Virus record (IMG/VR): IMGVR_UViG_3300044911_000941
Coordinates: 1-20,141 of that record
Source of the DNA: a virus
Direction: 5' to 3' (one strand)
Length of the DNA stretch: 20,141 nucleotides
Positions 2 to 13,955 of the stretch are shown here, piece after piece. Each line of letters opens with the position of its first letter. Position 1 is the first letter of the stretch. The notes under the pieces were generated by a model. The model searched no databases. It was not told where the DNA came from and worked only from the letters and a program-made list of their open reading frames with translations. A program made the position numbers and the translations under genes.

Positions 2-700
2 CTCACTGAAGAGCAGCCCAAGACTCGGTGGCACAAGAGCACCACCAGCCTCACCAAGAACGACTCCAGCCCACAAACCGTGGTGAGCATGTTCTCCTAC
101 TTCAACTTCTCAGCCAGGAAGCGCATGCTCCCATCAGTCGTTGACTGGTCTGAATCGCTGGCGTTCAAGTCCCAACTCAAGCGCTGGGTGAGTCTTGGGA
201 TCACCACCGACCAGTTCACGAAGATGTGTGATCTCTTCTTCGCCACCTACAAGGGCACCACGCCGTGGAAGAGTTTCACGTCCACAGCAGTTCGTGACCG
301 TCTCATTAGTGAGACAGCACCGGCTGGTGAGTCGTTCACCGAGATGGAGCAGTGGCTGATGAACGACCTAGCCTACGATGATTACCTCCCGTGGACTAGC
401 CGTGAGAACTCAGAGTCAGCATCGCTGGTTCTCCGCTTCCCTGGCCTGCTTCACACGTACCCTGACGTGGTGCTTGATGTGGTGGAGAAGGCGTCAGGCT
501 CCGATGCCATCGGCCTGCTGGAAGACGTGATGTTGCTGACGGACAATGGTGTCCGTGGTGCTGAGCGAAAGGCAGCAGTTGCCCGCCTACAGCAGAGCGA
601 TGTGCGTGTACCAAAGTCAATGATGACGGTGTCGACTCTTCGGTCACCTGCTACCTCGTTGCTCGCTGCGATCACCTTGGCAAGGTCTGACAAGTCATGA
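2..700 (+). CDS. Unknown phage protein, 5' end outside the window
   Basis: The reading frame is open from base 2, so the gene very probably starts upstream; the GTG at 80 is only the first internal start codon and the 26 codons before it read as ordinary protein. About 232 residues are visible. I see no signal peptide, membrane helix or catalytic motif, and I do not recognise the family. The middle (around FFATYKGTTPWKSF) is rich in aromatic residues and the C-terminal half looks helical. Its stop overlaps the start of the DnaC-like gene by 4 bases (ATGA), so the two are translationally coupled. A replication-initiation or loader-partner role would suit the position, but nothing in the sequence proves it. 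Confidence 0.75.
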   Translation, partial: LTEEQPKTRWHKSTTSLTKNDSSPQTVVSMFSYFNFSARKRMLPSVVDWSESLAFKSQLKRWVSLGITTDQFTKMCDLFFATYKGTTPWKSFTSTAVRDRLISETAPAGESFTEMEQWLMNDLAYDDYLPWTSRENSESASLVLRFPGLLHTYPDVVLDVVEKASGSDAIGLLEDVMLLTDNGVRGAERKAAVARLQQSDVRVPKSMMTVSTLRSPATSLLAAITLARSDKS

Positions 701-1326: not shown

Positions 1327-1759
1327 CGACCTGGCAGCGTGGACGGACTACACCGAAGCAGTTGTGTTTGAGGGTGTTCTTGCAGCACCGCCAGACCGTA
1401 CGTTGCAGAAGTTCAAGTTCAAAGTGTCTCAGTCGACTGGTGACTGGGATCGCGCCCTTCGGTTGTGGCGACCGGGCGACCACGCTCTCAAGACGCTCAT
1501 CAGCAACGTCAACAGGATCGGCATCAGGACGTACGTCTACACGTTTCTTGATGAGGGTGCAGCAGAGGCTATTGAAAGGTGGCTTGCCAGAAAAGGCGTA
1601 GGTGTGTCGTGTACGTACTACTCGTCGGTAGAGGCTCTTCGTGATGATCTCCGCTACAACCGTGAGGTCTACAAGGTGTACGTTCCAACGTACGACATGG
1701 TGAGGGAGATAGGCCCACGTGCAACGGCAGTATCTCCAGATAGTACATGGAGTAACTGA
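1313..1759 (+). CDS. Unknown protein with weak HAD-like pattern
   Basis: This 148-residue ORF starts at GTG 1313, inside the end of the loader gene, with a strong ribosome binding site (AAAGGAGA, 1303-1310). It ends in a TGATG junction with the helicase gene. The N-terminal strand VVFEGVLAAP, the later RTYVYTF strand, and a C-terminal IG.RATAVSPDSTW segment lie in the order expected of a small haloacid-dehalogenase fold (motif I, motif II, final strand). The catalytic aspartates of motif I are missing, so a phosphatase activity is unlikely. This resemblance is by eye and weak. The position between loader and helicase suggests a replication accessory role. Confidence 0.75.
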   Translation: MVEGNDLAAWTDYTEAVVFEGVLAAPPDRTLQKFKFKVSQSTGDWDRALRLWRPGDHALKTLISNVNRIGIRTYVYTFLDEGAAEAIERWLARKGVGVSCTYYSSVEALRDDLRYNREVYKVYVPTYDMVREIGPRATAVSPDSTWSN

Positions 1760-2997
1760 TGGCTTCACCTGAGTATCTGCTCATAGTAAAGTGCGTTGCT
1801 GAGGGGGACATGCACACGCCGCTGAAGAGCGGCATCAAGCCCGAGCACTTCTCTGGAGAATGGGCAGAGATCTGGGGGTGGATGGTTGAGTACCACCAAA
1901 AGCACTCGCAGTGTCCGTCCATTCGATCACTCCAGAACCAGTGGGGAGATCTAGACACAAACGAGGACACGACGAACGAGTCGTTCTCTGGCCTCGTTGA
2001 CGAGGTTCACGACGCATACACACGTCGAAAGTTGTTGGAGACAATCTCCGACACAATGCCGTCTCTTAACGGGGGAAGAACGGCAGAAGCGCTGAACACG
2101 CTGAGTTCGGGCGTACAGCAGGCAGCGGTGAGTGTCGCAAAGATTCGTGATGTTGACATCATCCAGACCTGGGAAGAGCGCATCCAGAAGTACGAGACGA
2201 TGCGGAACACTCCCAACAGTCTTCGTGGTATTCCGACAGGGTTCCCTGGTCTTGACAAGATCACGAATGGTCTTCGACCACAGCAGTTCATCGTCGTAGC
2301 AGGTGAGCCGAAGCGAGGAAAGTCATGGCTCGCTCTCATCATGGCAGACGAGGCACACCGCTACGGAAAGCGCCCGATGTTCATCTCGTTTGAAATGAGC
2401 ATTGAGGAGCAGGAGGCGCGATACGACGCAATCGTGTCAAAGGTTCCGTACGGGAACGTGCTGAGCGGCAACCTTACGTCTAGAGAACTGGACACGATCA
2501 GGGCGGCATTGAAGTTACGGAAGAACATGCACCCGTTCATCATGAGCGAGGACACGTCAAGCCTGACAACTGTCAGCGCTGTTTCGGCCAAGATCAAGGA
2601 GTACCAGCCCGATGTGTTGTTCATCGATGGTGTGTATCTCATGGACGACGAGAACGGGGAGCGCAAGGGTTCGCCGCAGGCTCTGACCAACATCACTCGT
2701 TCACTGAAGCGGTTGGCACAGCAGTACGACATTCCAGTTGTGGCAACCACACAGGTGTTGTCGTGGAAGTTGAACAACAAGACATCCCGAGCAGTGTCCG
2801 CTGATGCCATTGGCTACACGTCATCCTTCGCCCAGGACTCAGACCTTCTCTTGGGTATTGAGCGCAACCCAGACATCGACAACCGTGCAATCATCCGAGT
2901 AGTGCACGCCAGGTCATCAACTACTGGAATTGTTAACATTTGTTGGAACTGGACGACAATGGAGTTCGACGAGGTGTATGGTGACGATGACGAATAA
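1759..2997 (+). CDS. DnaB-like replicative DNA helicase
   Basis: This 412-residue protein has the DnaB layout: a helical N-terminal domain (roughly 1-130), a linker, then a RecA-like motor domain. Walker A (GEPKRGKS) is at 182-189, the catalytic glutamate follows in FISFEMS (Glu212), Walker B is DVLFIDG at 285-291, the sensor-like VVATTQVL lies at 327-334, and FAQDSD at 357-362 matches the conserved C-terminal motif. HARSS at 383-387 is a likely arginine-finger region. The family unwinds duplex DNA at the fork as a hexamer. The length is slightly under the bacterial norm of about 450. The start codon overlaps the previous stop (TGATG), and the DnaC-like loader is nearby. Confidence 0.95.
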   Translation: MASPEYLLIVKCVAEGDMHTPLKSGIKPEHFSGEWAEIWGWMVEYHQKHSQCPSIRSLQNQWGDLDTNEDTTNESFSGLVDEVHDAYTRRKLLETISDTMPSLNGGRTAEALNTLSSGVQQAAVSVAKIRDVDIIQTWEERIQKYETMRNTPNSLRGIPTGFPGLDKITNGLRPQQFIVVAGEPKRGKSWLALIMADEAHRYGKRPMFISFEMSIEEQEARYDAIVSKVPYGNVLSGNLTSRELDTIRAALKLRKNMHPFIMSEDTSSLTTVSAVSAKIKEYQPDVLFIDGVYLMDDENGERKGSPQALTNITRSLKRLAQQYDIPVVATTQVLSWKLNNKTSRAVSADAIGYTSSFAQDSDLLLGIERNPDIDNRAIIRVVHARSSTTGIVNICWNWTTMEFDEVYGDDDE

Positions 2998-3006
2998 GGA
3001 GAACCA

Positions 3007-3309
3007 ATGAGCGAGCAAGACATCGTGGAACGGCTACGGGCTGAAGTTGTCCCATGCCCCGGCAGGGGATTGGACGGGCACGGTATGCGGCACTGCGCCG
3101 AGTGTTGTTTCGGCAGTGGCATCGAAGCAACCAGCGAAGCCGATCTTCGGATCATGCTGCTTGCCCGAGATGCCGCCGACCAGATCGAACGGTTGCGAGC
3201 CGCAGGCGATGCGCTGGTGCAACTGATCTACCTGAATCCGAACACCCCTTCTCAAGAAGACTGGGATGCGGCTGTCGCCGCATGGCGGGAGGCCAGTCGT
3301 GAGCGGTGA
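3007..3309 (+). CDS. Small DIVERLR-family protein A
   Basis: This 100-residue protein opens with MSEQDIVERLRAE, has a cysteine-rich stretch (one Cys at 18, then HCAECC at 30-35), a predicted amphipathic helix AADQIERLRAAGDAL, and ends AWREASRER. The start is fixed by AAGGAGAA at 2997-3003, just after the helicase stop. The cysteine and histidine residues could bind a metal. The role of DIVERLR-type proteins is unknown to me; the helix suggests oligomers or binding to another protein. It is the first member of the array, and its last codons carry the ribosome binding site and start of the next gene. Confidence 0.8.
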   Translation: MSEQDIVERLRAEVVPCPGRGLDGHGMRHCAECCFGSGIEATSEADLRIMLLARDAADQIERLRAAGDALVQLIYLNPNTPSQEDWDAAVAAWREASRER

Positions 3310-3754
3310 CATCGTGGAGCGGCTACGGAACTGGGACGATGGCCGTGTCAGCACCCACTATGAGGGCTGCTGGGATTCCCACCCCGTTTGCGCCATCCTG
3401 CTTGCCGCTGACGCCATTGAAGCCCGTGATGCCGAGATCGAACGGCTGCGGAAGCGACTGCAAGCGTGTCAGTCGATCGACGCCTTGCCGCTGACCGACG
3501 ACTGCATCACGCAGAACGAGCGAATGCTCTTCACTGAGAACGAGCGGCTGCGGGCTGAGCGTGACGACCTGCACGTTCTTCTCAGAGGCAGAACGGCTGA
3601 ACTGCAAGCCGAGATCGGAGGGCTGCGAGGTAATCAGCGTGCGGTTGTTGCTCTTGCTCGCACAGTTCTAGGCAAGAGCGAGCATCCAGTTGAACGGTCG
3701 CCGTGGATCGACGTAATCCACATGATGGACGAGGAGGTCCGCTGTGAGCGGTGA
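3299..3754 (+). CDS. DIVERLR-family coiled-coil protein B
   Basis: This is the longest member of the array at 151 residues: MSGDIVERLRNW, then AADAIEARDAEIERLRKRL, and further helical segments (ENERLRAERDDLHVLL, TAELQAEIGGLR) that should form a long coiled coil. I chose GTG 3299 rather than an upstream ATG (3266) because it restores the shared MSxDIVERLR start and sits 8 bases after GGGAGG. It overlaps the previous gene by 11 bases. It ends DEEVRCER, where GAGGAGG supplies the next ribosome binding site. The function is unknown. Confidence 0.8.
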   Translation: MSGDIVERLRNWDDGRVSTHYEGCWDSHPVCAILLAADAIEARDAEIERLRKRLQACQSIDALPLTDDCITQNERMLFTENERLRAERDDLHVLLRGRTAELQAEIGGLRGNQRAVVALARTVLGKSEHPVERSPWIDVIHMMDEEVRCER

Positions 3755-4019
3755 AATGACCGAGTTGCCGGAAGTCGCACTATGGCGAGTGACATGGTGG
3801 GAGCCACCCGACCCAACTACGACCCGTCCTCGGAAAACGACCACCGTTTCGCCATACTGGCTAGGCGGCACTAACCACACAGCCGAAGTGGTCGCATCCA
3901 CGATGGAGGTTGCCATTGCAGCCGTCCGTGCCGATAACCCCACCGCCGTCTTTGCCAATGTCACGAAGGCAAGCAAGACAGGCCTGTTCTACGTTGCGCA
4001 GGAGGACCGCCATGAGTAG
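3744..4019 (+). CDS. Unknown small protein embedded in the module array
   Basis: This 91-residue protein begins MSGEMTE at GTG 3744 and overlaps protein B by 11 bases. Unlike its neighbours it has no ERLR coiled coil: it has a Trp-rich segment (WRVTWWEPPD) and a helix (STMEVAIAAVRADNP) and looks like a small alpha/beta domain. Its end, QEDRHE, is still in the same phase as the other module ends, because GAGGAC supplies the ribosome binding site for the next gene. This suggests that unrelated cargo can occupy a slot in the array. The family is not recognised. Confidence 0.75.
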   Translation: MSGEMTELPEVALWRVTWWEPPDPTTTRPRKTTTVSPYWLGGTNHTAEVVASTMEVAIAAVRADNPTAVFANVTKASKTGLFYVAQEDRHE

Positions 4020-4257
4020 TGACATTGTGGAGCGGCTGCGTACCGAAGCCAATGAATGGTGGGAGTGCTGTAACAACATCCATTTGCCCCTCATCGCTGC
4101 CGCCGACACCATCGAAGCCCGTGACGAAGAAATCGAACGGCTGCGTGCCGAACTGGAACTACATCGGGCTGGCACTCAGGAGGTAATCAGAGAAGAAATC
4201 AGATTGGCTACACAACGTGTCGTCGCAGCACACAGGGAGGCCCGTCGTGAGCGATGA
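4012..4257 (+). CDS. Small DIVERLR-family protein D
   Basis: The 81-residue product starts MSSDIVERLRTEANEWW, continues with AADTIEARDEEIERLRAELELHR and ends AAHREARRER. The stretch TIEARDEEIERLR closely matches AIEARDAEIERLR in protein B, so these two are likely recent duplicates. The start is ATG 4012, which overlaps the preceding stop by 8 bases behind AGGAGG. It is nearly all helix with no enzyme motif. The function is unknown. Confidence 0.8.
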   Translation: MSSDIVERLRTEANEWWECCNNIHLPLIAAADTIEARDEEIERLRAELELHRAGTQEVIREEIRLATQRVVAAHREARRER

Positions 4258-4486
4258 CATTTGCGATTGGCTTGCCGAAGAGGAAGCCGCTGCCGAGCAG
4301 TGGGGCGGCTTGGGCGGTGCCCAGTTCTATCGGGAACGGTTCGCCGCCGCCCGTGCCGAGATCGAACGGCTGCGTGCCGCAGGCGATGCGCTGGCCGACT
4401 CAGTTGACCTGACCCAATTCCACCTGACCCAGTTCGTCCTGGCCGCAGAAGCATGGCGGGAGGCCCGTCGTGAGCGGCAGGGATAG
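4247..4486 (+). CDS. Small EIERLRAAGDAL-type protein E
   Basis: This 79-residue protein starts MSDDICDWLAEEEAAAEQW, a diverged form of the DIVERLR start, then has AAARAEIERLRAAGDALADS and ends AEAWREARRERQG. EIERLRAAGDAL also occurs in protein A (as QIERLRAAGDAL) and nearly in the 7503 protein, linking both arrays. GTG 4247 is preferred because it lies 8 bases after GGGAGG and overlaps the previous gene by 11 bases. The reading frame runs three codons past the usual end before stopping, next to the primase gene. Confidence 0.8.
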   Translation: MSDDICDWLAEEEAAAEQWGGLGGAQFYRERFAAARAEIERLRAAGDALADSVDLTQFHLTQFVLAAEAWREARRERQG

Positions 4487-4490
4487 GTAA
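4470..4490 (+). other. Orphan module start (six-codon ORF) after protein E
   Basis: The end of protein E carries the full junction, CGGGAGG then GTGAGCGGC, but the GTG at 4470 opens only a six-codon frame ending TAA at 4488-4490. The primase start follows 4 bases later. This looks like the remains of a deleted module, or a coupling device that hands ribosomes to the primase gene, since GGGAGG is too far from ATG 4495 to serve it directly. Confidence 0.5.
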
Positions 4491-4494
4491 CCGC

Positions 4495-5403
4495 ATGTCC
4501 TTAGCACAAGTACTCAGTGACATCGGTGTAGATGTCAAGCGAGAAGACTCAAAGGAAATCACTGGCAAGTGCCCCGTTCATCTTCGTCGGACAGGGCGAG
4601 AAGACGGCCACCCGTCATGGAGTATGAACGCATCCACTGGTCTTTGGATCTGTTTCTCCTGCGGAGCACGTGGGACGCTGCCCATGCTTGTACAGGAGTT
4701 GACCGGGTCAGCAGATACCATGACGTTAGTACACAACGTCATCATAGAAGCAGGCATCAAGACAGCCGCAATAGGCAAAGGTGTCAAGACCAGTGTCCAA
4801 CTCACTAACGATGACCTGATCAAGTTTGGGCAATTTTCTTCCGTGCCTAAGAAGAAAGCGAAGCGTCGCAGCCTTGAACAAGACCTACTTGAAGAGTACA
4901 GCATTAGGTGGGATGACGACGACCATGCGTTCATCATCCCCATTGTCTCTCTCACAGGAGAGATGATGGGCTGGCAGTGCAAGGGAAACGGTTGGGTGAA
5001 GAACTATCCAGAAGGAGTAATCAAGTCAGACACTCTGTTTGGTGTGCACCACCTTGGCGTATCAGCATCGCCAAAGGCCGTGCTTGTAGAGTCACCGCTT
5101 GACGTAGTGCGGTGGGCAGCGGTATGGGACTTCCCTCGCGCAGTAGCGTCGTTTGGGTCGTACGTATCTGATAAACAGATTCGCCTACTGTCTAGGGCGG
5201 TAGACGGATTGGTCGTAGCGATGGACAACGATCCGGCTGGAGTGAGTTCCACCTCACGTCTCTTCCGAGTACTTCCTAACTTCCGTAGCGGCGTTGCGTA
5301 CCTGAAGTATCCAAAGGGAGTAAAAGACGTAGGCGACATGAGCGACGATCAGATCGTTGCTGCACTGGAGTCATCCGCTGCACTTCCTCCTTGGAAGTGC
5401 TAG
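4495..5403 (+). CDS. DnaG-like DNA primase (zinc finger plus TOPRIM)
   Basis: This 302-residue protein has the two parts of a DnaG-type primase in a compact form. A zinc-binding site is formed by Cys26, His29, Cys53 and Cys56 (CPVH ... CFSC). The TOPRIM core has the glutamate strand VLVESPLDVV (Glu199), a SFGS turn, and the metal-binding strand VAMDNDPAG (Asp244, Asp246). KDVGDMSDD at 277-285 near the end is also typical of phage primases. It is much shorter than cellular DnaG (about 580-600) and lacks a helicase-binding C-terminal domain. It should make RNA primers at the fork. The start is ATG 4495; no strong ribosome binding site is seen just upstream. Confidence 0.93.
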   Translation: MSLAQVLSDIGVDVKREDSKEITGKCPVHLRRTGREDGHPSWSMNASTGLWICFSCGARGTLPMLVQELTGSADTMTLVHNVIIEAGIKTAAIGKGVKTSVQLTNDDLIKFGQFSSVPKKKAKRRSLEQDLLEEYSIRWDDDDHAFIIPIVSLTGEMMGWQCKGNGWVKNYPEGVIKSDTLFGVHHLGVSASPKAVLVESPLDVVRWAAVWDFPRAVASFGSYVSDKQIRLLSRAVDGLVVAMDNDPAGVSSTSRLFRVLPNFRSGVAYLKYPKGVKDVGDMSDDQIVAALESSAALPPWKC

Positions 5404-5408
5404 AACTG

Positions 5409-5439
5409 TTGACTATTCGTGCCTGAATGCTAGTAGCAT
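5409..5439 (+). promoter_or_regulatory. Putative promoter giving a leaderless helicase transcript
   Basis: TTGACT at 5409-5414 is a good -35. TAGCAT at 5434-5439 fits the TANNNT pattern of actinobacterial -10 boxes, though the 19-base spacer is long. Transcription would start about 7 bases on, at or next to ATG 5448, giving a leaderless message. Neither ATG 5427 nor ATG 5448 has a ribosome binding site, which supports this reading. Confidence 0.35.
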
Positions 5440-5447
5440 CTATTGCT

Positions 5448-6989
5448 ATGGCGTTTATTGGTACACCATACCCGTATCAACAGGAAGCGATTGACCGCAT
5501 GGTCGATCAAGGGAAGATGCTTCTTGGTGTATGCATGGGCGGCGGGAAAACGCTAATGACGATTGCTGCCATTGAGCGTCTGTACGATGAGGGTGAAATC
5601 CGCCGAGCACTTGTTGTCGTTCCTGCGTCCCTCAAGTACCAGTGGCTGAGTGAGATCAAGAAGTTCACCGACTCACGGGCAGTTGTGATCGATGGGTCAG
5701 CCGAACAGCGTAAAGCGCTTTGGAGGGCCAGTACCTCTGTTAAGTACGTGATCATTAACCCCGAGTCATTGATCAACGACTTACCGCAGTTGGTAAGCCA
5801 CAAGTTTGACCTCATCGCTGTTGACGAGGCAACTATGCTGAAGACCCGTTCTTCTAAGCGCTCTCGCATGCTTAAGAAGATAGGTAACTCAATCTTCTAT
5901 AGGTTTGCGCTCACAGGGCAGCCGATTGAGAATCGCCCAGAAGAACTCTTCAGCATCATGGAGTTTGTCGACAAGGAAGTTCTCGGGGACTTTAGAAAGT
6001 TCGACAACACGTTCATCGTACGTAACAACTTCGGTCGTCCTGTTCGATACAGGAACCTTGATCGTCTGACTGATGCGCTGGTCGATAGATTGATTCGTAA
6101 AACCAGAGCAGACATTGCTGACCAGTTGCCGCAAGTGATCCATCAGACGATTGCCGTTCCGTTTGACGATGCTGGTGGTCGCCTGTATAGGCACATCGCT
6201 AACGATCTAATCAGCCAGATTCAGGACGCAACAGCAAAGCACGGCAAGGGTTTCAGTCTGTGGAGCCATTACAACGGTGAGGGTGATGAGGCGCAGGGGC
6301 AGATCATGTCTCGTCTCACGGTGCTTCGTATGCTGTGCGACAATCCACAACTCGTGAAGGACAGTGCTAACGAGTTCGCTGACAGCAGTACAAAGGCAGG
6401 TAGTCAGTACGCAGCAAACATCGCTGCTGCTGGCCTGCTTTCCAACGTAGATAAGACTCCCAAACTCAACGCAGTTCTGGAGTACATCGAACAGGTGTTG
6501 TCGGAAGACCCAGCGAACAAGGTCGTGCTGTTCTCGTTCTTCAAGAACAACCTACGCCTTCTACAGAGGAACACTTCTCACCTCACGAACAGCGTGCTGT
6601 TCATGGGCGGCATGACCAACGTAGAAAGAGAAGCGGCCAAGGAAAAGTTCCGCAACGACCCAGGAACCCGTCTCTTCTTATCGTCAGACGCAGGCGGATA
6701 CGGCGTAGACCTACCTATGGCCAACGTGCTTATATCGTACGACCTACCGTGGTCGTCTGGAAAACTAGAGCAGCGAGAAGCGCGCATCATCCGTTTGTCG
6801 TCTGAGTTCCCCCACGTCACCATTGCTACGTTCGTCATGCGTGGTTCGATTGAGGAGCGGCAGTACGAGATGCTCCAGCACAAGCGCATGGTCAATGAGG
6901 CGTTCGTGGACGGCAAGCACCATGAGCAGGGTGTTCTTGAGGTAGACGTGTCCACTCTGACAAACTTTCTAAAATCTACCGAACTGTAG
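5448..6989 (+). CDS. SNF2/DEAD-like superfamily 2 helicase
   Basis: This protein of 513 residues from ATG 5448 is an SNF2-type ATPase that moves along or remodels DNA. The Q-like PYPYQQEAIDRM start, Walker A (MGGGKT, 30-35), LVVVPASLKYQW (motif Ia), VDEAT (Walker B, 125-129, a DEAH variant), LTGQPIEN (motif III, 155-162), DAGGYGVDLPMANVLISYDLPW (motif V, starting at 414) and EQREARIIR (motif VI, 441-449) occur in the correct order. Motif VI lacks the usual R.GQ ending. I prefer ATG 5448 to ATG 5427 because the family alignment starts there and a -10 box ends 8 bases before it; neither has a ribosome binding site. In related phages such helicases sit in replication or recombination operons. 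Confidence 0.92.
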   Translation: MAFIGTPYPYQQEAIDRMVDQGKMLLGVCMGGGKTLMTIAAIERLYDEGEIRRALVVVPASLKYQWLSEIKKFTDSRAVVIDGSAEQRKALWRASTSVKYVIINPESLINDLPQLVSHKFDLIAVDEATMLKTRSSKRSRMLKKIGNSIFYRFALTGQPIENRPEELFSIMEFVDKEVLGDFRKFDNTFIVRNNFGRPVRYRNLDRLTDALVDRLIRKTRADIADQLPQVIHQTIAVPFDDAGGRLYRHIANDLISQIQDATAKHGKGFSLWSHYNGEGDEAQGQIMSRLTVLRMLCDNPQLVKDSANEFADSSTKAGSQYAANIAAAGLLSNVDKTPKLNAVLEYIEQVLSEDPANKVVLFSFFKNNLRLLQRNTSHLTNSVLFMGGMTNVEREAAKEKFRNDPGTRLFLSSDAGGYGVDLPMANVLISYDLPWSSGKLEQREARIIRLSSEFPHVTIATFVMRGSIEERQYEMLQHKRMVNEAFVDGKHHEQGVLEVDVSTLTNFLKSTEL

Positions 6990-7041: not shown

Positions 7042-7506
7042 ATGAAGATCGTACGAGAAACCCGGCCAGACGGTCAGTATCTGGCCCGACTAGCAGATGA
7101 GTACGCCAATGCTAAAGCATTCGCAGAGAAGGCCACTGCTCGCGCTGATGAACTCAAGTCAGAACTCGCCCGAGTGACCGACGAGTTGGGCCAGCAGGAC
7201 AACAAGGGCAACATCTGGCTGCAAGCAGGCAAGTACGACCTCAAGCGTGAGCGTCGACTGTCGCGCAGTCTGGATCTGTCTCATGCTGAGACATGGGCAC
7301 GGGACAACGGAGTGTGGGGAGAAGTTTCCGAAATCAAGGCAGTCCTGAGCGAAGACCTGCTTCTTGGGTGGGCGTGGGATCACCCAGATAAGACGGATGA
7401 AGTCCAGGCTCTTTACAAAGAGAAAGAGGTCTGGGCCTTCAAACTCTCTGAGGCCAAGGTGCCTCTTACGGAGACCAGCGCCACAGATGTGGGAGGACAG
7501 CCATGA
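7042..7506 (+). CDS. Unknown phage protein with N-terminal coiled coil
   Basis: The 154-residue product has a helical N-terminus (RLADEYANAKAFAEKATARADELKSELARVTDELG, 16-50) likely to be a coiled coil, then a compact domain including KRERRLSRSLDLSHAETWARDNGVW and LLLGWAWDHPD, and ends VGGQP. It appears to be a conserved phage hypothetical, but I cannot name a function. The start is clear: AAGGAGGAG lies just before ATG 7042. The end overlaps the next gene by 4 bases (ATGA). Confidence 0.82.
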   Translation: MKIVRETRPDGQYLARLADEYANAKAFAEKATARADELKSELARVTDELGQQDNKGNIWLQAGKYDLKRERRLSRSLDLSHAETWARDNGVWGEVSEIKAVLSEDLLLGWAWDHPDKTDEVQALYKEKEVWAFKLSEAKVPLTETSATDVGGQP

Positions 7507-7739
7507 GCGGTAAGCAGAGTCTCTTGGAGTGGTTGCGCTGGATGGCCCTAATGGGCGTTGATAATGAAGTGGTCATGCTTCAGGGTGGAGCACTAGAGCG
7601 ATGCGCTGAAGCAGCCGTTGAGATCGAACGGTTGCGGGCCGCTGGCGATGTGCTGTGTCGCTACGTCATCGAGAGTGGCCCTGGGTTGCATGACGACGAA
7701 TCCGTTGTCGCCTACTGGCTGGAGGCCCGCCGTGAGTGA
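7503..7739 (+). CDS. Small EIERLRAAGD-type protein F
   Basis: The 78-residue protein begins MSGKQSLLEWLRWMALMG, has AVEIERLRAAGDVLCRYV in its middle, and ends AYWLEARRE. EIERLRAAGD is shared with the proteins at 3007 and 4247, over 3 kb away. ATG 7503 follows GGGAGGA and overlaps the previous stop by 4 bases. Its last codons (CTG GAG GCC CGC CGT GAG) contain the ribosome binding site and start of the next gene. No function is known to me. Confidence 0.78.
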   Translation: MSGKQSLLEWLRWMALMGVDNEVVMLQGGALERCAEAAVEIERLRAAGDVLCRYVIESGPGLHDDESVVAYWLEARRE

Positions 7740-8019
7740 GCGAGACATCGTGGAACGGCTGCGTGACGCGCACCAGACCGTACCGATCCCAGCCATTGCA
7801 TCGCTCTACAGCAATGCTGCCGACGAGATCAAACGGCTGCGTGCCGAGGTCAGGGGCTTTCAGGCTGAAAGCGGCTGCTGGCAGCGGTGGCACGACGCCG
7901 AGCGTGCCCTGGCCGACCAGTTGGCCGATGCGTTGCGAGATGAAGCCCGCAATCGCACACTGCGAGGGAGCGCTGCCCGAGCACTGGACGCCCACGAAGA
8001 GGCCCGCCGTGAGCGGTGA
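7732..8019 (+). CDS. DIVERLR-family protein G
   Basis: This 95-residue protein starts MSERDIVERLRDAHQT at GTG 7732, has AADEIKRLRAEVRGFQAE, a second helix rich in Ala and Asp (ERALADQLADALRDEARN), and ends AHEEARRER. It is a full DIVERLR module like those in the first array. It overlaps the previous ORF by 8 bases and is placed behind GGAGG. It is mainly helical, with no catalytic motif. The function is unknown. Confidence 0.8.
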   Translation: MSERDIVERLRDAHQTVPIPAIASLYSNAADEIKRLRAEVRGFQAESGCWQRWHDAERALADQLADALRDEARNRTLRGSAARALDAHEEARRER

Positions 8020-8206
8020 GTGTGTTGCGTTCCAGTGGATCGGCCAGCCGATCACGTCATGCGATGGTTGCGGGAAGCCAGCATGGGAGCACGACTACTA
8101 CCGAGGCTCTCCGTGGCAGGATTACCTCATCGCCACTTGGCTGGCGGATGGATTCATCAGCCGACAGCGAGCCGCAGCCCTACTCGTAGTGGAGGAGCGG
8201 TCATGA
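8009..8206 (+). CDS. Small zinc-finger-like protein H
   Basis: The 65-residue product starts MSGECVAFQWIGQPITSCDGCGKPAWEHDYY. The CDGCGKPAWEH segment gives a CxxC plus a histidine, suggesting metal binding. The C-terminal half (WQDYLIATWLADGFISRQRAAALL) looks helical. GTG 8009 overlaps the previous gene by 11 bases at the standard junction. Its own end is the exception: it meets the next gene by an ATGA overlap in a different phase. The family is unrecognised. Confidence 0.72.
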   Translation: MSGECVAFQWIGQPITSCDGCGKPAWEHDYYRGSPWQDYLIATWLADGFISRQRAAALLVVEERS

Positions 8207-8382
8207 GAAGTGGGCGGCACGACTTCGTCTGCGGCCAAGTCGCCTGGTTCGTGCGCCGCTGCTGGTGGGCGCTCAATCCATCACGAGCCGTGTGGTGCGA
8301 CGACCTGGCGTGCAAGTGTAGGACATGCACCGTGGACGGGTGCTGGTGCCGGGAGGCCCGCTATGAGCAGCGCAATGACTGA
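8203..8382 (+). CDS. Small Cys/Trp-rich protein I
   Basis: The 59-residue protein has CDDLACKCRTCTVDGCWC (33-50), six cysteines that could hold one or two metal ions, after a Trp-rich basic segment (FVRRCWWALNPSRAVW). It ends WCREARYEQRND. The REARYE end is the standard module end in the usual phase. ATG 8203 follows GTGGAGGAG. It is short, so the call rests on the junctions and clear ribosome binding site. Confidence 0.62.
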   Translation: MRSGRHDFVCGQVAWFVRRCWWALNPSRAVWCDDLACKCRTCTVDGCWCREARYEQRND

Positions 8383-8476
8383 GGTGACGACCTTCTTGGC
8401 TGTCTGGCTGGTGTTCTCGGTCGTCGTCGGGCTTGTCGTCGGCCGCATCATCAAGGAGGAGGCCCGACGTGAGTAG
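8363..8476 (+). CDS. 37-residue single-helix membrane protein J
   Basis: This very short ORF starts at ATG 8363 behind CGGGAGG, overlapping the previous gene by 20 bases. It encodes MSSAMTEVTT, then a hydrophobic stretch FLAVWLVFSVVVGLVVG (11-27) that should cross the membrane, then RIIKEEARRE. With positive residues after the helix, the C-terminus is likely inside the cell. The end carries the standard coupling phase. The helix is long and clean, and the junctions match the array, so it is likely real despite its size. Confidence 0.6.
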   Translation: MSSAMTEVTTFLAVWLVFSVVVGLVVGRIIKEEARRE

Positions 8477-8651
8477 GTACTACTACGTATGCGCCACGTG
8501 TGGAAACAAGTGCGACACCATCGCCCCATCAGTTGTCATATGCACTCATAGACCCCTGAACAAACAGGGGTCGTCTCACACGGCAAAGAAACCAACACAA
8601 TCCGTCGAAGTATCGAAGGAAGTATATGAGCAAGGGAAAGTACGTAATTAA
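8469..8651 (+). CDS. Small zinc-ribbon-like protein K
   Basis: The 60-residue protein starts MSRYYYVCATCGNKCDTIAPSVVICTH, with CATCGNKC followed by CTH, a likely zinc-ribbon fold, then a polar tail. GTG 8469 follows AAGGAGGAG, the standard junction. A hairpin (8551-8572) lies inside the coding region. It overlaps the next gene by 26 bases. The function is unknown. Confidence 0.65.
   Translation: MSRYYYVCATCGNKCDTIAPSVVICTHRPLNKQGSSHTAKKPTQSVEVSKEVYEQGKVRN
8551..8572 (+). other. Perfect 8-bp hairpin inside a coding region
   Basis: GACCCCTG, a 6-base AACAAA loop, and CAGGGGTC form a perfect stem, followed by GTCTCACACGG rather than a T-run. It could pause or attenuate transcription, or reduce translation, between the module array and the downstream regulators. 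Without a U-tract, a true intrinsic terminator is unlikely. Confidence 0.45.
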
Positions 8652-8904
8652 AAGCGGAGAACTGGCTGGCATGGCTTTGAGGTTTGCCAAGTTCAACAAG
8701 GGAACGATTGACTACCCGTTTCTGCGTTACATGAACCCACGGTTCTCTAACGCCCCGAACACATACCGCATGCTCAGCACGTTGGTCAGGTACCAACTCC
8801 TACGAGAAGGAGAGAACTGCTACGTACTCACCTCCCTCGGAGAGGAAGCAGTGCGTCTGCTTGCCGAGCGTGACAGCAAAGTAACGGTAGGGATGACGAC
8901 GTGA
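8626..8904 (+). CDS. Winged-helix-like small protein
   Basis: The 92-residue product reads like a small winged-helix domain: helices around GMALRFAKFNKG and YRMLSTLVRYQLL, followed by a two-stranded wing (REGENCYVLTSLGEEAVRLL). Such domains often bind DNA. The recognised features are general, so this is a guess from pattern. ATG 8626 has GAAGGAAG ahead of it. It overlaps the next gene by 4 bases (GTGA), and that neighbour is also a DNA-binding type, suggesting a regulatory pair. Confidence 0.72.
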   Translation: MSKGKYVIKSGELAGMALRFAKFNKGTIDYPFLRYMNPRFSNAPNTYRMLSTLVRYQLLREGENCYVLTSLGEEAVRLLAERDSKVTVGMTT

Positions 8905-9323
8905 GCGATATTGGATCAGGATGGCCTGACTACCCAGGAAAGCGCCCGCCCAAGAACAGGGGCGCTGCTAAACCAACGACTCCGATCAGTGATCGACCCG
9001 ACCTAAAGGGGAAGGTCTACAGAATCAAAGGAGTAGATGTTGAGTTGTTCACAATTGGCGAACTGGCTGGCGCAGTGCAGAGGAAGCCTGTTACACTGAG
9101 GATGTGGGAGTCAAGTGGGTGGATACCCAAGTCAAACTGGAGATCACCAACCCCACAAGGAACGCAGATTCCCGGCAAGACGACCCGTGGCCGAAGGCTG
9201 TACAGCAGGTCACAGGTAGAGTTGGTGGTCTCAGCAGTTGAGATGTTCAACATCAACGACCAGCGTCGTGCCGATTGGGCAGCGTTCAGAGAGCACATCA
9301 AAAAGCACTGGCTAGACCAGTAA
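8901..9323 (+). CDS. MerR-like helix-turn-helix DNA-binding protein
   Basis: The 140-residue protein has a MerR-type winged helix: LFTIGELAGAVQRKPVTLRMWESSGWIP (49-76) forms the HTH, where the family usually has T.R.WE..G.IP, and RGRRLYSRSQVELV (96-109) matches the R.Y....V wing. The N-terminal 35 residues are Pro/Gly/Lys-rich and probably unstructured. It is a likely regulator or DNA-architecture protein; its target cannot be read from the sequence. GTG 8901 overlaps the previous stop by 4 bases. The C-terminal part (WAAFREHIKKHWLDQ) is helical. Confidence 0.8.
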   Translation: MSDIGSGWPDYPGKRPPKNRGAAKPTTPISDRPDLKGKVYRIKGVDVELFTIGELAGAVQRKPVTLRMWESSGWIPKSNWRSPTPQGTQIPGKTTRGRRLYSRSQVELVVSAVEMFNINDQRRADWAAFREHIKKHWLDQ

Positions 9324-9358: not shown

Positions 9359-10084
9359 ATGATTAGGCGTCCAGCAAACACAAACAACACTCGCAACGAC
9401 GAACGCGATGATGACGACGACGAGCAAGAGTTCAAGAAGCGCGACCGCAAGGTTGACGATGATGAAGAGGACGAGGAAGAGAGCAAGCCTCGCCCGTCAG
9501 CAGCCGGTAAGGTGATCAAGCGTGGCTGGGCAGCCGCCGACTCCCTTCAGTCGAAGAACTCGCCTTACGCCCAGTCGCTCAAGTTGAGCGAGAAAGCCAT
9601 CATCGTCAAGTTCATCGAAGATGAGCCGTACGCGTCGTTCCGTCAGCACTGGGTGGAGCGCAAGGGACAGAAGTCCTTCGTCTGCATCGATGGGATTGAC
9701 CCCAAGGGTTGTCCGCTCTGCGATGCCAGCAACCGCCCCACCGACCGCTATTCGTTCAACGTAGTGCTGCTGTCGGCAGGCGGCGATGACCCCGTCATCA
9801 AGTCGTACGATGTGGGTGGCCGTGTCATCGATCAGTTGCGTAACTTCCATCTGGACGACAAGCAGGGTCCGCTCAGCAAGCACTACTGGGCGATCAGTCG
9901 CAGCGGTACCGGTCCTCGCGCCTCTACGAACCACCAGATGATTCGTGAGCGTGACTTGTCTGACTACGACCTTGAGGCACTGTCGGATTCGGACATCCGT
10001 GCCCTTCGCAAGGATGCGTACGATGAGTCCATCGTGAACATCCCAAGCCGTAAGGAACTCTTGGAGATTGTCGACGAACTGTGA
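9359..10084 (+). CDS. T4 gp32-like single-stranded DNA-binding protein
   Basis: This 241-residue protein resembles phage gp32-type SSBs that coat single-stranded DNA during replication and recombination. Residues 107-135 (FVCIDGIDPKGCPLCDASNRPTDRYSFNVV region) carry Cys109, Cys118 and Cys121, a likely zinc site with nearby His97, followed by a beta-strand core. It has a striking acidic stretch at 14-42, with runs of Asp and Glu at the N-terminus; T4 and T7 SSBs keep acidic tails at the C-terminus, although the C-terminus here (ELLEIVDEL) is also mildly acidic. AAAGGAGA (9345-9352) fixes ATG 9359. It is followed by a hairpin that may limit read-through into the polymerase gene. Confidence 0.8.
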   Translation: MIRRPANTNNTRNDERDDDDDEQEFKKRDRKVDDDEEDEEESKPRPSAAGKVIKRGWAAADSLQSKNSPYAQSLKLSEKAIIVKFIEDEPYASFRQHWVERKGQKSFVCIDGIDPKGCPLCDASNRPTDRYSFNVVLLSAGGDDPVIKSYDVGGRVIDQLRNFHLDDKQGPLSKHYWAISRSGTGPRASTNHQMIRERDLSDYDLEALSDSDIRALRKDAYDESIVNIPSRKELLEIVDEL

Positions 10085-12168
10085 TCGGTAACGACTCACT
10101 GAGCAGCGGGAGGGTAACACCTCCCGCTGTTTCGTCTCTAGACGAAGTCCATTACATCGTTGAGAAGATCCGTGAGCACGGTGAGTTTGTGTTCGACGTA
10201 GAAACCCGTGGCAACGTGAGTAGGCACCCCGAGGTATCGTCACGCATGGAGGCGGAGTGGAGCAAGCACTTAGCCTCTTTGCGCACGGAGTCTCCATCAG
10301 TCATTGCCAGGTCTCGCTCTGCCTTTGAAGAGGAGTACAAGTCAGAGGTTGCTCTTGACCAACTCCTGAACGAGGTGTTCTGGATCGGCATTGCTCTGCC
10401 AGGAGAATCCTGGGCTATCCCGATGGGCCACAAGAACGGTGAAGTACTCGTTCCAGAAGAAGCCGGTGACGGAACAACTGTTCCACCTCCCGGCTATAGG
10501 AAGGTGCTTCAAAGCGGTAAAGAGTCTATGGCTAAGGCTAAGTACCGCATACCAGCACAGTTCAGCCCACCACCTGAGCAGTTAACCCGCTCAGACGTGT
10601 TCGACGTTCTTCGTCCCGTGTTCTTGGACGATTCGATCACGAAGATCGGCCACAACATCAAGTTCGATGCACGGTCTGTGGCTAAGTACATTGGGCAGAT
10701 CCCTAATGGGCCGTTTGTCGACACCATGATCATGCAGTTCGTGCTTGACGAGAACCTGATGACGTACAAGTTGGAAGCCTTGATTGCTAACAACTTCGAT
10801 GGGCATGATGCGTACCGTGGTGAGAAGTTGGGTTCACGAATCGACACAGTCTCATTCTCAAGTGCCTGTAATTACGTACACCTAGATGTCAGGTGGACGT
10901 GGATGCTCTACAAGAGGATGCTTCCGAAGATCACATCAAGTGAGTCGCTCAGTACAGCGTTTTCCTTGGACATGGATGTCATCGAAGCACTCATGCACAT
11001 GGAGCACACTGGTATTGAGGTTGACGCTGACAGGATGCGTGCTCTTGGGGTTGAACTTGACCACAGGAAGCAATCTGTGCTGATTGATATCGGAAAGTAC
11101 GCATACAAGGGGTTCAACCCTGACTCCAACAAGGACAAGCAGGCGCTGCTCTTCACTCCAAAGGATGACGGTGGTCTTGGGCTAAAGCCAGTGAGGGTAT
11201 CTGAGAAGACAAATGCCCCGTCTGTAGACGAGCAGTCACTGTCAGCACTTAAGCAGAAGCACCCGATTGTTCCGCTTTTGATGGAGTGGCAGGAAATCAC
11301 AAAGTTGAAGGGCACGTACGTAGACGGACTACTTCCCCGTCTCAGGTCTGGTCGCTTGCATCCTGACTTCAACCTGCACAGGGCCAAGACCTCTCGCCTG
11401 TCTGCCAGTAACCCGAACCTTCAGAACATCCCCAGAGAATCCTCACTACGAGAGTTGTTCGTAGCGAGTGAAGGCGAAGTGTTTATCGACGCTGACTACG
11501 ACCAGATCGAACTGCGCGTCTTCTGCATGTACTCAAAAGACCCAGTGATGAGCAGGTACTTCATCGATGGGATTGACATCCATAAGGGTGCCGCAGCGGC
11601 GGTCTTCAACAAGTCCGTTGAAGACGTGACCAAGGACGAGCGACAGATCGGAAAGATGGTCAACTTCTTGACCGGGTTCGATGGTGGCGCACAGAAACTG
11701 GCCGACAGCGCAGGCGTGTCTATCTCTGATGCTAGAAAGTTCATCGACCAGTACTACCGAAAGTTCCATGTTCTAGCAGCGTGGAAAGAGGACGTGCGGG
11801 CATCAGCCAGGAAAAAGGGATACGTTGAGACACTGGCAGGACACCGAAGGCGGCTTCCAGATATCATGTCATCAAACGCCGAGTTGCGATCCAGAGCAGA
11901 GCGTCAAGCGGTAAACTCAAAGATTCAAGGTTCCGCAGCAGATATCTGCAAGGAGGCGATGGTCGCTGTGCACAAAGCATTCTCTGGTACAGACGCCAGG
12001 CTTCTTGTTCAGGTGCACGACGAACTTATCTGCGCTGTACCAAAGGACAGCGCCCATGAGTACATGGAAGTGCTCAAGACGGCGATGGGTCATGGTGTAG
12101 AGATCAACGGCATCCCACTTGTGGTCAGTGCTGCAATCGGTCCATCATGGGCAGAGGCAAAGGAGTAA
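10081..12168 (+). CDS. polA: Family A DNA polymerase (Pol I type) with 3'-5' exonuclease
   Basis: This 695-residue replicative polymerase has an N-terminal proofreading exonuclease: Exo I FDVET (Asp39, Glu41), Exo II GHNIKFD (Asn192, Asp196), Exo III YVHLD (265-269). The polymerase domain has motif A DADYDQIELR (Asp472, Glu477), motif B starting R521...K525...F529, and motif C VHDE (His646-Glu648). Two residues matter: the position equal to E. coli Phe762 is Phe529, and that equal to Tyr766 is Phe533. It has no 5' nuclease domain. The only reasonable start is GTG 10081, with a 4-base overlap of the SSB stop; I find no in-frame ATG or GTG before the Exo I motif. A hairpin lies within codons 8-17. 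Confidence 0.97.
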   Translation: MIGNDSLSSGRVTPPAVSSLDEVHYIVEKIREHGEFVFDVETRGNVSRHPEVSSRMEAEWSKHLASLRTESPSVIARSRSAFEEEYKSEVALDQLLNEVFWIGIALPGESWAIPMGHKNGEVLVPEEAGDGTTVPPPGYRKVLQSGKESMAKAKYRIPAQFSPPPEQLTRSDVFDVLRPVFLDDSITKIGHNIKFDARSVAKYIGQIPNGPFVDTMIMQFVLDENLMTYKLEALIANNFDGHDAYRGEKLGSRIDTVSFSSACNYVHLDVRWTWMLYKRMLPKITSSESLSTAFSLDMDVIEALMHMEHTGIEVDADRMRALGVELDHRKQSVLIDIGKYAYKGFNPDSNKDKQALLFTPKDDGGLGLKPVRVSEKTNAPSVDEQSLSALKQKHPIVPLLMEWQEITKLKGTYVDGLLPRLRSGRLHPDFNLHRAKTSRLSASNPNLQNIPRESSLRELFVASEGEVFIDADYDQIELRVFCMYSKDPVMSRYFIDGIDIHKGAAAAVFNKSVEDVTKDERQIGKMVNFLTGFDGGAQKLADSAGVSISDARKFIDQYYRKFHVLAAWKEDVRASARKKGYVETLAGHRRRLPDIMSSNAELRSRAERQAVNSKIQGSAADICKEAMVAVHKAFSGTDARLLVQVHDELICAVPKDSAHEYMEVLKTAMGHGVEINGIPLVVSAAIGPSWAEAKE
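10104..10129 (+). terminator. Terminator-like hairpin at the start of the polymerase gene
   Basis: CAGCGGGAGG (10104-10113) pairs perfectly with CCTCCCGCTG (10120-10129) around a GTAACA loop, then TTTCGTCTC follows. It lies just after the SSB stop but inside the polymerase reading frame. It may be an incomplete terminator that makes SSB more abundant than polymerase. The U-tract is weak, so termination should be partial. Confidence 0.55.
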
Positions 12169-12947: not shown

Positions 12948-13955
12948 ATGTTGCAGGAAATTGACAGCATTATTGCTGACGTAAATAAGAAGTATGGAGA
13001 TGACACCGTAGTAAAGGGTAGTCGTATCCATAAAGAACTGCCGCGTATTACGACTGGTGTTCTGTCCTTCGACCTAATGCTGGGAGGAGGGTGGCCCGTA
13101 AACCAGTGGTCAGAGATCATTGGTAATGAGTCATCGGGCAAGACTGCCCTTGCGTACAAGACCATCGCAGCCAACCAGGCACTAGACCCAGAGTGGACAG
13201 CGATGTGGGTAGCGGCAGAGGAGTACGTCCCAGCCTATGCTGAAGCAATCGGTGTCGATCTAGACCGCTTGTGGGTCGTTGAGACCAACGTGATGGAGTA
13301 CGTGTACGACATCTCTCTACGTGTGCTTGACAAGCGTGCAGTGGACTGCATTGTCATCGACTCGTTGCCTGCGCTCGTACCCTCAGTTGAGGACGAGAAG
13401 GAGATGATGGAGATGACGATGGGCCTTGGTGCCCGCATCACCGGAAAGTTCCTCCGCAAGTCAGGACGTGCACAGCGCAGGTCGTTGGTAGAGACCGAGC
13501 GTGGGTGCACTGGTTTGATCATCAATCAGTGGAGAGACAAGATCGGTGTCATGTACGGCGATCCGCGCACCACTCCTGGTGGTAAGGCCAAGAACTTCCA
13601 TTACTTTGCCCGTGTAGAAGTAGCACGTGATGAGTGGATCACCGAGAAGGATGAGAAGGTCGGCCAGTCGATCCGTGCAAAGACCTTGAAGAACAAGACC
13701 TACCGTCCCTATCAGGATGCGGTCGTGGACTTCTTCTTTACTGACACGAAGGGGTTCTCCCTTGGGTCATTCGATGTCATCAAGGACATGGTCAACACTG
13801 CCATGTCGCTGGGCATCATCAACCGGCGAGGTGCCTACTACTCGTTTGCTGAGCAGCAGTGGCAGGGCAAAGACGCCACATACCAGGCATTCAGGGAAGA
13901 CCTGGATATCCAGAACGCACTAAAAGAAGCAGTAATCGGAGCAGTACTGAAATGA
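12948..13955 (+). CDS. recA: RecA-like recombinase
   Basis: This 335-residue protein follows the RecA fold. It has a TTGVLSFDLMLGGGWP N-terminal turn, Walker A GNESSGKT (59-66), the catalytic-Glu region AAEEYVPAYAEAIGVD (Glu91 or Glu92), Walker B CIVIDSLPAL (134-143), and the L2-like segment NQWRDKIGVMYGDPRTTPGGKA (193-214) ending in the typical GG.A(L/K). RecA proteins bind single-stranded DNA and drive strand exchange. It is in the usual range for phage RecA. AAGGGAG (12938-12944) fixes ATG 12948. It overlaps the next gene by 4 bases and leads a recombination operon with several nucleases. Confidence 0.93.
   Translation: MLQEIDSIIADVNKKYGDDTVVKGSRIHKELPRITTGVLSFDLMLGGGWPVNQWSEIIGNESSGKTALAYKTIAANQALDPEWTAMWVAAEEYVPAYAEAIGVDLDRLWVVETNVMEYVYDISLRVLDKRAVDCIVIDSLPALVPSVEDEKEMMEMTMGLGARITGKFLRKSGRAQRRSLVETERGCTGLIINQWRDKIGVMYGDPRTTPGGKAKNFHYFARVEVARDEWITEKDEKVGQSIRAKTLKNKTYRPYQDAVVDFFFTDTKGFSLGSFDVIKDMVNTAMSLGIINRRGAYYSFAEQQWQGKDATYQAFREDLDIQNALKEAVIGAVLK

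Follow-up and report, generated by a model that had tools for sequence, protein, structure and literature searches.

The window, that is the whole stretch of DNA analysed here, is IMG/VR record IMGVR_UViG_3300044911_000941 with a length of 20,141 bp, and its gene content, which also includes an IstB-like ATPase, reads as a replication region. The genes needed for orientation are the following (here and below, C-terminal tails are written up to the stop codon):

1759–2997, plus strand: DnaB-like helicase (PF03796, 1e-33); left flank of slot 1
4495–5403, plus strand: DnaG-like primase (Toprim); right flank of slot 1
5427–6989: SNF2 helicase
7042–7506, plus strand: conserved 154-aa protein with the tail ETSATDVGGQP; left flank of slot 2
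8901–9323, plus strand: MerR-like HTH protein; right flank of slot 2
10081–12168: family A DNA polymerase
12948–13955, plus strand: phage-encoded RecA (PF00154, 2e-52); candidate recombinase

Named phages gave no megablast match to the window, and the nearest named relatives of its primase are Streptomyces phages at ~31–32% identity. Because of these primase relatives, and because WhiB-like modules occur in arrays elsewhere, the host of the phage probably belongs to the Actinobacteria. Promoter and terminator scans of the region stayed at or near chance level.

Small-gene arrays in two slots

The gap between the helicase and primase genes (slot 1) holds array 1, composed of five small ORFs with the following features:

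3007–3309, plus strand: ORF1, 100 aa, MSEQDIVERLR...EASRER
3181–3197, plus strand: island QIERLRAAGDAL of ORF1
3288–3306, plus strand: connector 1, GGAGGCCAGTCGTGAGCGG; ORF1 stop together with SD and start of ORF2
3299–3754, plus strand: ORF2, 151 aa, MSGDIVERLRNWDDGR...EVRCER
3434–3450, plus strand: EIERLR island of ORF2, GAGATCGAACGGCTGCG
3733–3751, plus strand: connector 2, GGAGGTCCGCTGTGAGCGG
3744–4019, plus strand: ORF3, 91 aa, MSGEMTELPEVALWRVTW...EDRHE; not of the DIVERLR type
4001–4019, plus strand: connector 3, GGAGGACCGCCATGAGTAG
4012–4257, plus strand: ORF4, 81 aa, MSSDIVERLRTEANEWW...EARRER; predicted two-helix protein
4129–4145, plus strand: EIERLR island of ORF4
4236–4254, plus strand: connector 4, GGAGGCCCGTCGTGAGCGA
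4247–4486, plus strand: ORF5, 79 aa, MSDDICDWLAEEEAAAEQ...EARRERQG
4358–4374, plus strand: EIERLR island of ORF5
4459–4477, plus strand: terminal (fifth) connector, GGAGGCCCGTCGTGAGCGG; intact, inside the ORF5 tail

A first-pass annotation had described five linked ORFs of the DIVERLR type with one repeated junction, GGAGG followed 6–8 bases later by GTGAGC or ATGAGT. The linkage is confirmed by four internal junctions (3288, 3733, 4001, and 4236), of which three carry GTGAGC and one ATGAGT; the spacing lies within the range given and is exactly 6 nt at all four, and the overlaps of 8 or 11 nt agree with the 8–11 bases within which one gene had been said to end and the next to start. The DIVERLR designation fits ORFs 1, 2, and 4, which begin in this way, and has to be dropped for the other two, as the N-terminus of ORF5 reads DICDWLA and ORF3 has neither DIVERLR nor EIERLR. 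The start of ORF1 itself, AAGGAGAACCAATG, differs from the connector. At the other end of the array, the GTG of the terminal connector (4470) opens just a six-codon remnant, MSGRDR, before the primase gene; this intact connector with its remnant (4459–4490) looks like what a lost cassette would leave behind.

A search with the primase returned 80 loci (L005–L084), 76 of them with both neighbours measurable. The helicase–primase distance is 17–47 nt in all 76 and 1501 in the window, a comparison that rests on distances, the junction letters in the relatives being uninformative. Because of this difference in gap length, array 1 is to be regarded as an insertion. Slot 2, between the 154-aa gene and the MerR-like gene, measures 18–680 nt in nearly all relatives and is expanded to 1.3–3.4 kb in the window, L078/L121 (one contig), L128, L115, and L005; connectors are present in the first four of these expanded slots and absent from that of L005. 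In the window, this slot holds array 2, in which six small ORFs are joined by the same connector (7492–8651) and which the annotation had missed:

7492–7510, plus strand: first connector, GGAGGACAGCCATGAGCGG; upstream tail ...TDVGGQP, 4-nt overlap register
7503–7739, plus strand: ORF of 78 aa with island EIERLRAAGDVL at 7620–7636 and tail EARRE
7721–7739, plus strand: connector GGAGGCCCGCCGTGAGTGA
7732–8019, plus strand: ORF of 95 aa, MSERDIVERLRDAHQ...EARRER; island at 7825–7841
7998–8016, plus strand: connector AGAGGCCCGCCGTGAGCGG
8009–8206, plus strand: ORF of 65 aa, MSGECVAFQWIGQPITSCDGCGK...
8203–8382, plus strand: ORF of 59 aa, MRSGRHDFVCGQVAWFVRR...; weakest connector match (8 mismatches)
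8352–8370, plus strand: connector GGAGGCCCGCTATGAGCAG
8363–8476, plus strand: ORF of 37 aa, hydrophobic single-helix type, MSSAMTEVTTFLAVWLVFSVVVGLVVG...EARRE
8458–8476, plus strand: last connector, GGAGGCCCGACGTGAGTAG
8469–8651, plus strand: last ORF, 60 aa, containing CxxC

Together with its connector, the 8363 ORF is 96% identical to L096 12029–12152 across 124 nt.

The array ORFs look protein-coding. All 25 homologous module pairs compared are in frame, so the frame-shifting in relatives that would have told against the annotation is not seen, and dN/dS is about 0.20 by simple counting at single-change codons, the pairs being non-independent in either case. AlphaFold2 predicted helices 2–19 and 24–80 for ORF4 (21 sequences; mean pLDDT 93.6, pTM 0.64). 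The best Foldseek match of this model was no better than E 2, and tblastn of ORF4 against named phages yielded no match. The DIVERLR proteins have no match above the curated cut-offs of Pfam or NCBIfam and no confident one in PHROGs or PADLOC; a profile search with their alignment retrieved only four loci, and the papers listed by a literature search for the peptide motifs of the ORFs were all unrelated. The 37-aa membrane peptide (8363–8476) weakly matches phrog_9943, a family of unknown function (E 4e-4). An apparent relation of ORF4 to Csx3 (E 0.003) was dismissed, since the match spans the helical stretch and was taken as chance; the matches of a PDB sequence search with the alignment were likewise set aside, all being to coiled coils, namely the RevCC molecule and the mitochondrial ATPase inhibitor.

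The connector and its reading registers

The connector has the consensus GGAGGCCCGTCGTGAGCGG, near-identical copies of which join the ORFs of array 1, and consists of SD-CCCGYC-GTG followed by codons 2–5. With up to six mismatches it occurs at 10 sites on the plus strand of the window and none on the minus strand, compared with a mean of 0.5 sites (maximum 3) on both strands of 50 first-order shuffles. Nine of the 11 array starts are 1–5 mismatches away from the connector, the remaining listed gene starts of the window 7–14. Two forms can be distinguished, GTGAGCGGTGAC (MSGD) and GTGGCTGACGAC (MADD).

The upstream gene ends in GAG GCC CGT CGT GAG CGG TGA (EARRER) in one register and in GGA GGC CCG TCG TGA (GGPS), with a 4-nt overlap, in the other; the third register coincides with the frame of the downstream gene. 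The annotation had held the phase to be constant, each new start beginning at position two of an upstream codon. This applies to all four junctions of array 1 and is not supported as a general rule, array 2 being mixed and the 130 connector-started modules being divided into 98 in the "second base" register (EARRER) and 32 whose upstream gene closes in the 4-nt overlap register (GGPS). Read from its sequence, the connector works as a two-register stop/start adaptor. Across the 130 connectors, letters upstream of position −12 are near background. Conservation extends to letters superfluous to translation, namely the CCCGYC spacer in two registers and codons 2–5; in part, it could nevertheless reflect translation rather than recombination.

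A second recurring tail, TNGSASATDVGGPS or similar, is found before connectors in the 4-nt overlap register, as in L085 4646–4930, L121 9849–10163, L108 8400–8603, L088 3623–3985, and window 7042–7506.

Breakpoints at the connector and the EIERLR island

Pattern scans of IMG/VR yielded further arrays, the largest with about ten genes (L085, L096, L098, L105, L108, L119, L123, L139, L150, L161, and others), all from metagenomic contigs and many of them partial. As the collection is connector-based, it favours connector-like sites, and its pairs and contigs are statistically non-independent, related sequences being counted repeatedly. Each of 24 whole contigs has one to seven clustered sites for an 18-mer with at most one mismatch, on one strand per contig except in two single-site cases (G006, G023), and a reversed control pattern has no site in any of the 24. 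The window helicase finds a match in two of these contigs and none in the other 22; most of the 24 are fragments, so that unrelatedness is not proven thereby. In GTDB genomes, two stricter connector patterns had no match, and connector queries against named phages returned weak partial matches only, plus one full-length match at 80% identity in Microcystis phage yong2.

The modules joined by the connector are often non-homologous; an array module of L119, for instance, is a WhiB protein (PF02467, 1e-21, 77.7 bits against a gathering score of 23.6). Modules of the WhiB type lie at L119 1883–2272 (by Pfam) and, by similarity to that one, at L111 5914–6345 and L145 921–1415.

When pairs were selected solely by similarity inside the module, 11 front-sharing pairs had an identity of 0.22–0.32 at −80 to −11 and of 0.85–0.89 from −10 on, the change falling at or beside the first base of GGAGG. 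Ten back-sharing pairs had an identity of 0.76–0.99 up to the SD and of ~0.25 from 20 nt further. Likewise, L093 and L128 share 3815 bp at 99.5% identity from the connector on and have different upstream genes. Pairs that are identical or contig-end duplicates (L132 vs L139, L121 vs L122) were not counted as independent. The modular slot system suggested by the first-pass annotation, in which a gene carries the ribosome binding site of its successor, is supported by the empty slot 1 of the 76 relatives, by the joining of non-homologous ORFs through the same connector across many phage contigs, and by the arrest of cassette homology at the connector; one fixed set and order of genes everywhere is clearly not what is seen.

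A second putative recombination island, absent from the annotation, lies inside the ORFs: many modules contain an internal island with EIERLRAAGDAL. The front half of ORF2 is 95% identical to those of L105 12117 and L096 11799, that of ORF5 97% to L121 10398, and that of the 7732 ORF 98% to L121 9849, with different back halves in each case. The fronts shared with L105 and L121 run from the start codon to 2–19 nt past the island start (17 nt for ORF2 and L105) and are followed by unrelated sequence. Conversely, back-half homology begins −7 to −1 nt from the island in nine of nine pairs, which represent two back-half families and hence not nine independent events; the chance that a random point falls in this zone is 0.05–0.12 per module. 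Front-half homology ends within 35 nt of the island in all seven pairs with an island in the query module, and two more front-half pairs have no island at that place. Separate clustering of the front and back halves of 52 island-bearing modules gave five shared front halves, all with different back halves, and three shared back halves, all with different front halves. In L139, a 135-bp piece reaching from the island to past the connector is present twice in one genome at 100% identity. The EIERLR island is conserved at the DNA level: the first E is GAG in 31/34 (58% elsewhere), the second E is GAA in 27/31 (42% elsewhere), and R is CGG in 31/34 (~22% elsewhere).

In three contigs, a stretch of ~75 nt, ...FLESSLRGSSCLVVVVSGD with small variants, recurs between connectors on the array strand (L121 8084–8160, L108 about 9095–9180, L088 about 3985–4060); it is not a normal cassette and in some instances is fused in frame to the start that follows. 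In about one third of the contigs (G003, G008, G013, G017, G019, G020, G022, G023), connectors lie at most about 1.5 kb from a contig end, as though assembly tended to fail at arrays; variation of the arrays between strains would be compatible with this.

Array assembly and related systems

The reading favoured here, to which a probability of about 0.7 is assigned, is that of translationally coupled accessory-gene arrays, which homologous recombination rebuilds by acting on two short conserved islands. The unit would be a small ORF whose last codons hold the SD and the start codon of the next ORF, translation most likely being handed along the array by termination-reinitiation. By closing the upstream ORF in two of three registers, the connector would allow most cassettes to be joined without adjustment; both registers are in use, and their pairing may be a matter of design. 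The connector and the EIERLR(AAGDAL) island provide short, nearly invariant DNA common to otherwise unrelated cassettes, at which general homologous recombination would act, the enzyme being possibly a RecA, of the host or the phage, or else an annealing recombinase. The RecA of the window is put forward as a candidate only because its gene is present there. Recombination at both islands would insert, delete, and duplicate whole cassettes and re-pair front with back halves, in keeping with the breakpoints observed. The products are probably small proteins of helical, coiled-coil-like character whose N-terminal parts vary, occasionally regulators (WhiB) or membrane peptides, and it may be speculated that an array represents an early-gene repertoire for dealing with the host. 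A bolder version, which is rather doubtful, would see in the arrays a dedicated combinatorial gene-assembly system of actinophages with two standard DNA joints, the connector, tolerant of frame, between genes and the island within them. If this were true, lineages would trade mini-genes as well as front and back halves from a common pool, and new small anti-host proteins would arise continually, perhaps with the help of a recombinase tuned to short joints.

The main rival holds that selection alone has shaped the mosaic: illegitimate recombination would be random, the survivors would be exchanges at gene ends or between protein parts, and the connector would be kept as a good RBS and overlap, EIERLR as a structural joint. 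Most mosaicism of actinophages is by preference ascribed to such a mechanism (PMC3029335). The functional role of SD, spacing, and start is obvious, and the predicted structure places the island inside a long helix, a tolerant spot for a joint. This rival is nonetheless unlikely. Random events would also leave some tails and junctions without the motif. Both the conserved letters unneeded by translation and the homogenisation of EIERLR codons against background usage argue against selection alone, and the exact intragenomic copy in L139 is bounded by the two islands. Much less probable is plain tandem duplication and divergence of one ancestral DIVERLR gene with its overlap. Several ORFs do have DIVERLR, EIERLRAAGDAL, and EARRER in common, and six window ORFs align to the first at 35–43% identity, so that duplication contributes; it cannot explain the whole, being contradicted by non-homologous cassettes (ORF3, 8009, 8363, the WhiB protein of L119, and others) and by fronts 95–98% identical to units of other contigs with unrelated backs.

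The arrays also recall a dedicated site-specific, integron-like system, in which a specific enzyme would recognise the connector and move cassettes, in that a single short conserved boundary site occurs in nearly always one orientation and growth takes place at fixed slots. This is the least probable of the readings: no inverted repeat can be made out in the connector, whose sequence is free to drift somewhat; gene halves are swapped at a sequence other than the connector, for which an enzyme of this kind is not required; and among the window genes examined there is no integrase, invertase, or integron-integrase gene by the arrays. An integron likewise strings small cassettes together by means of a repeated site. 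No integrase or folded attC-like site is seen here (the ORFs examined in this 20-kb fragment include no tyrosine integrase, IntI), and, unlike in integrons, the connector is the translation signal itself. The re-pairing of halves at the island has its counterpart in the HsdS subunit of Type I restriction systems, where target-recognition domains shuffle and variable halves are re-paired by recombination within conserved gene segments. The array products differ from HsdS in being unrelated proteins, encoded by many tiny arrayed genes with gene-to-gene connectors.

Among phage systems, the lambdoid nin region has been referred to as an interlinked gene chain (Kroger and Hobom 1982, cited in PMC8022706). 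As in lambda nin, small genes are located beside replication genes and tightly packed through stop/start overlaps, and their content varies among relatives. The nin genes are mostly dispensable and early, as the array genes may be; the nin overlap is typically ATGA and its gene sets are related across lambdoids, whereas the arrays have 4-, 8-, or 11-nt overlaps. The nin region lies between the replication genes and the Q antiterminator, the window slots between helicase and primase and between the 154-aa and MerR-like genes. Further differences from nin are a connector of ~20 nt and fixed sequence common to non-homologous genes, its occurrence in phages without detected relation to the replication genes of the window, and the second island allowing half-gene swaps.

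Closer to the connector itself are the SAS/ESAS elements of Cluster K mycobacteriophages and Cluster EF Microbacterium phages. The SAS is a 13-bp sequence at the RBS upstream of starts, GGGATAGGAGCCC in Cluster K or GGGAAAGGACCCC in Cluster EF, suggested as a possible target of homologous recombination; the ESAS is an upstream 17-bp inverted repeat at about half the sites (PMC3203893, PMC7302621). Both SAS and connector are short conserved RBS motifs, mostly in one orientation, that accompany small genes of several unrelated families. The connector consensus GGAGGCCCGTCGTGAGCGG does not correspond to the 13-bp SAS consensus, and no inverted repeat comparable to ESAS lies upstream, where the 130 connectors are near background before −12 and pair identity falls to 0.22–0.32. 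Unlike the SAS, the connector contains the start and the next codons, sits in the upstream coding end, and supplies the upstream stop, and cassette exchange at the connector is seen directly by sequence comparison.

Homologous recombination at short conserved boundaries has been discussed for phage mosaic joints, as exemplified by genes 67/68 of Island3, neighbours with the C-terminal 18 residues in common; at most such joints, boundary sequences are unidentifiable (PMC3029335). In the arrays they are present at the examined cassette boundaries and at one internal joint: connector and island are each shared sequences flanked by unrelated ones. Overlapping early gene chains, conserved RBS-associated repeats, and short-boundary recombination are known ideas. 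The literature consulted, which mostly did not include subscription papers and so offers weak evidence, contained no description of the connector, the two-register adaptor, or half-gene shuffling at the island. It has long been asked whether phage mosaics come about through homologous exchange at short shared joints or through illegitimate recombination plus selection, partly for want of recognisable boundary sequences at most joints (PMC3029335). Since both joints are visible here, breakpoints can be read to a few bases, and halves assort freely, this question becomes directly testable, and the arrays constitute an unusually clear case for testing how phages mix genes. The connector, a natural two-register stop/start adaptor, also offers a simple DNA key with which accessory mini-genes can be found in uncultured phages. 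A different short array with the connector GGAGGCCAGCCGTGAGC and GGQP tails is found at L143 7016–7811 and is possibly an analogous system in another phage group.
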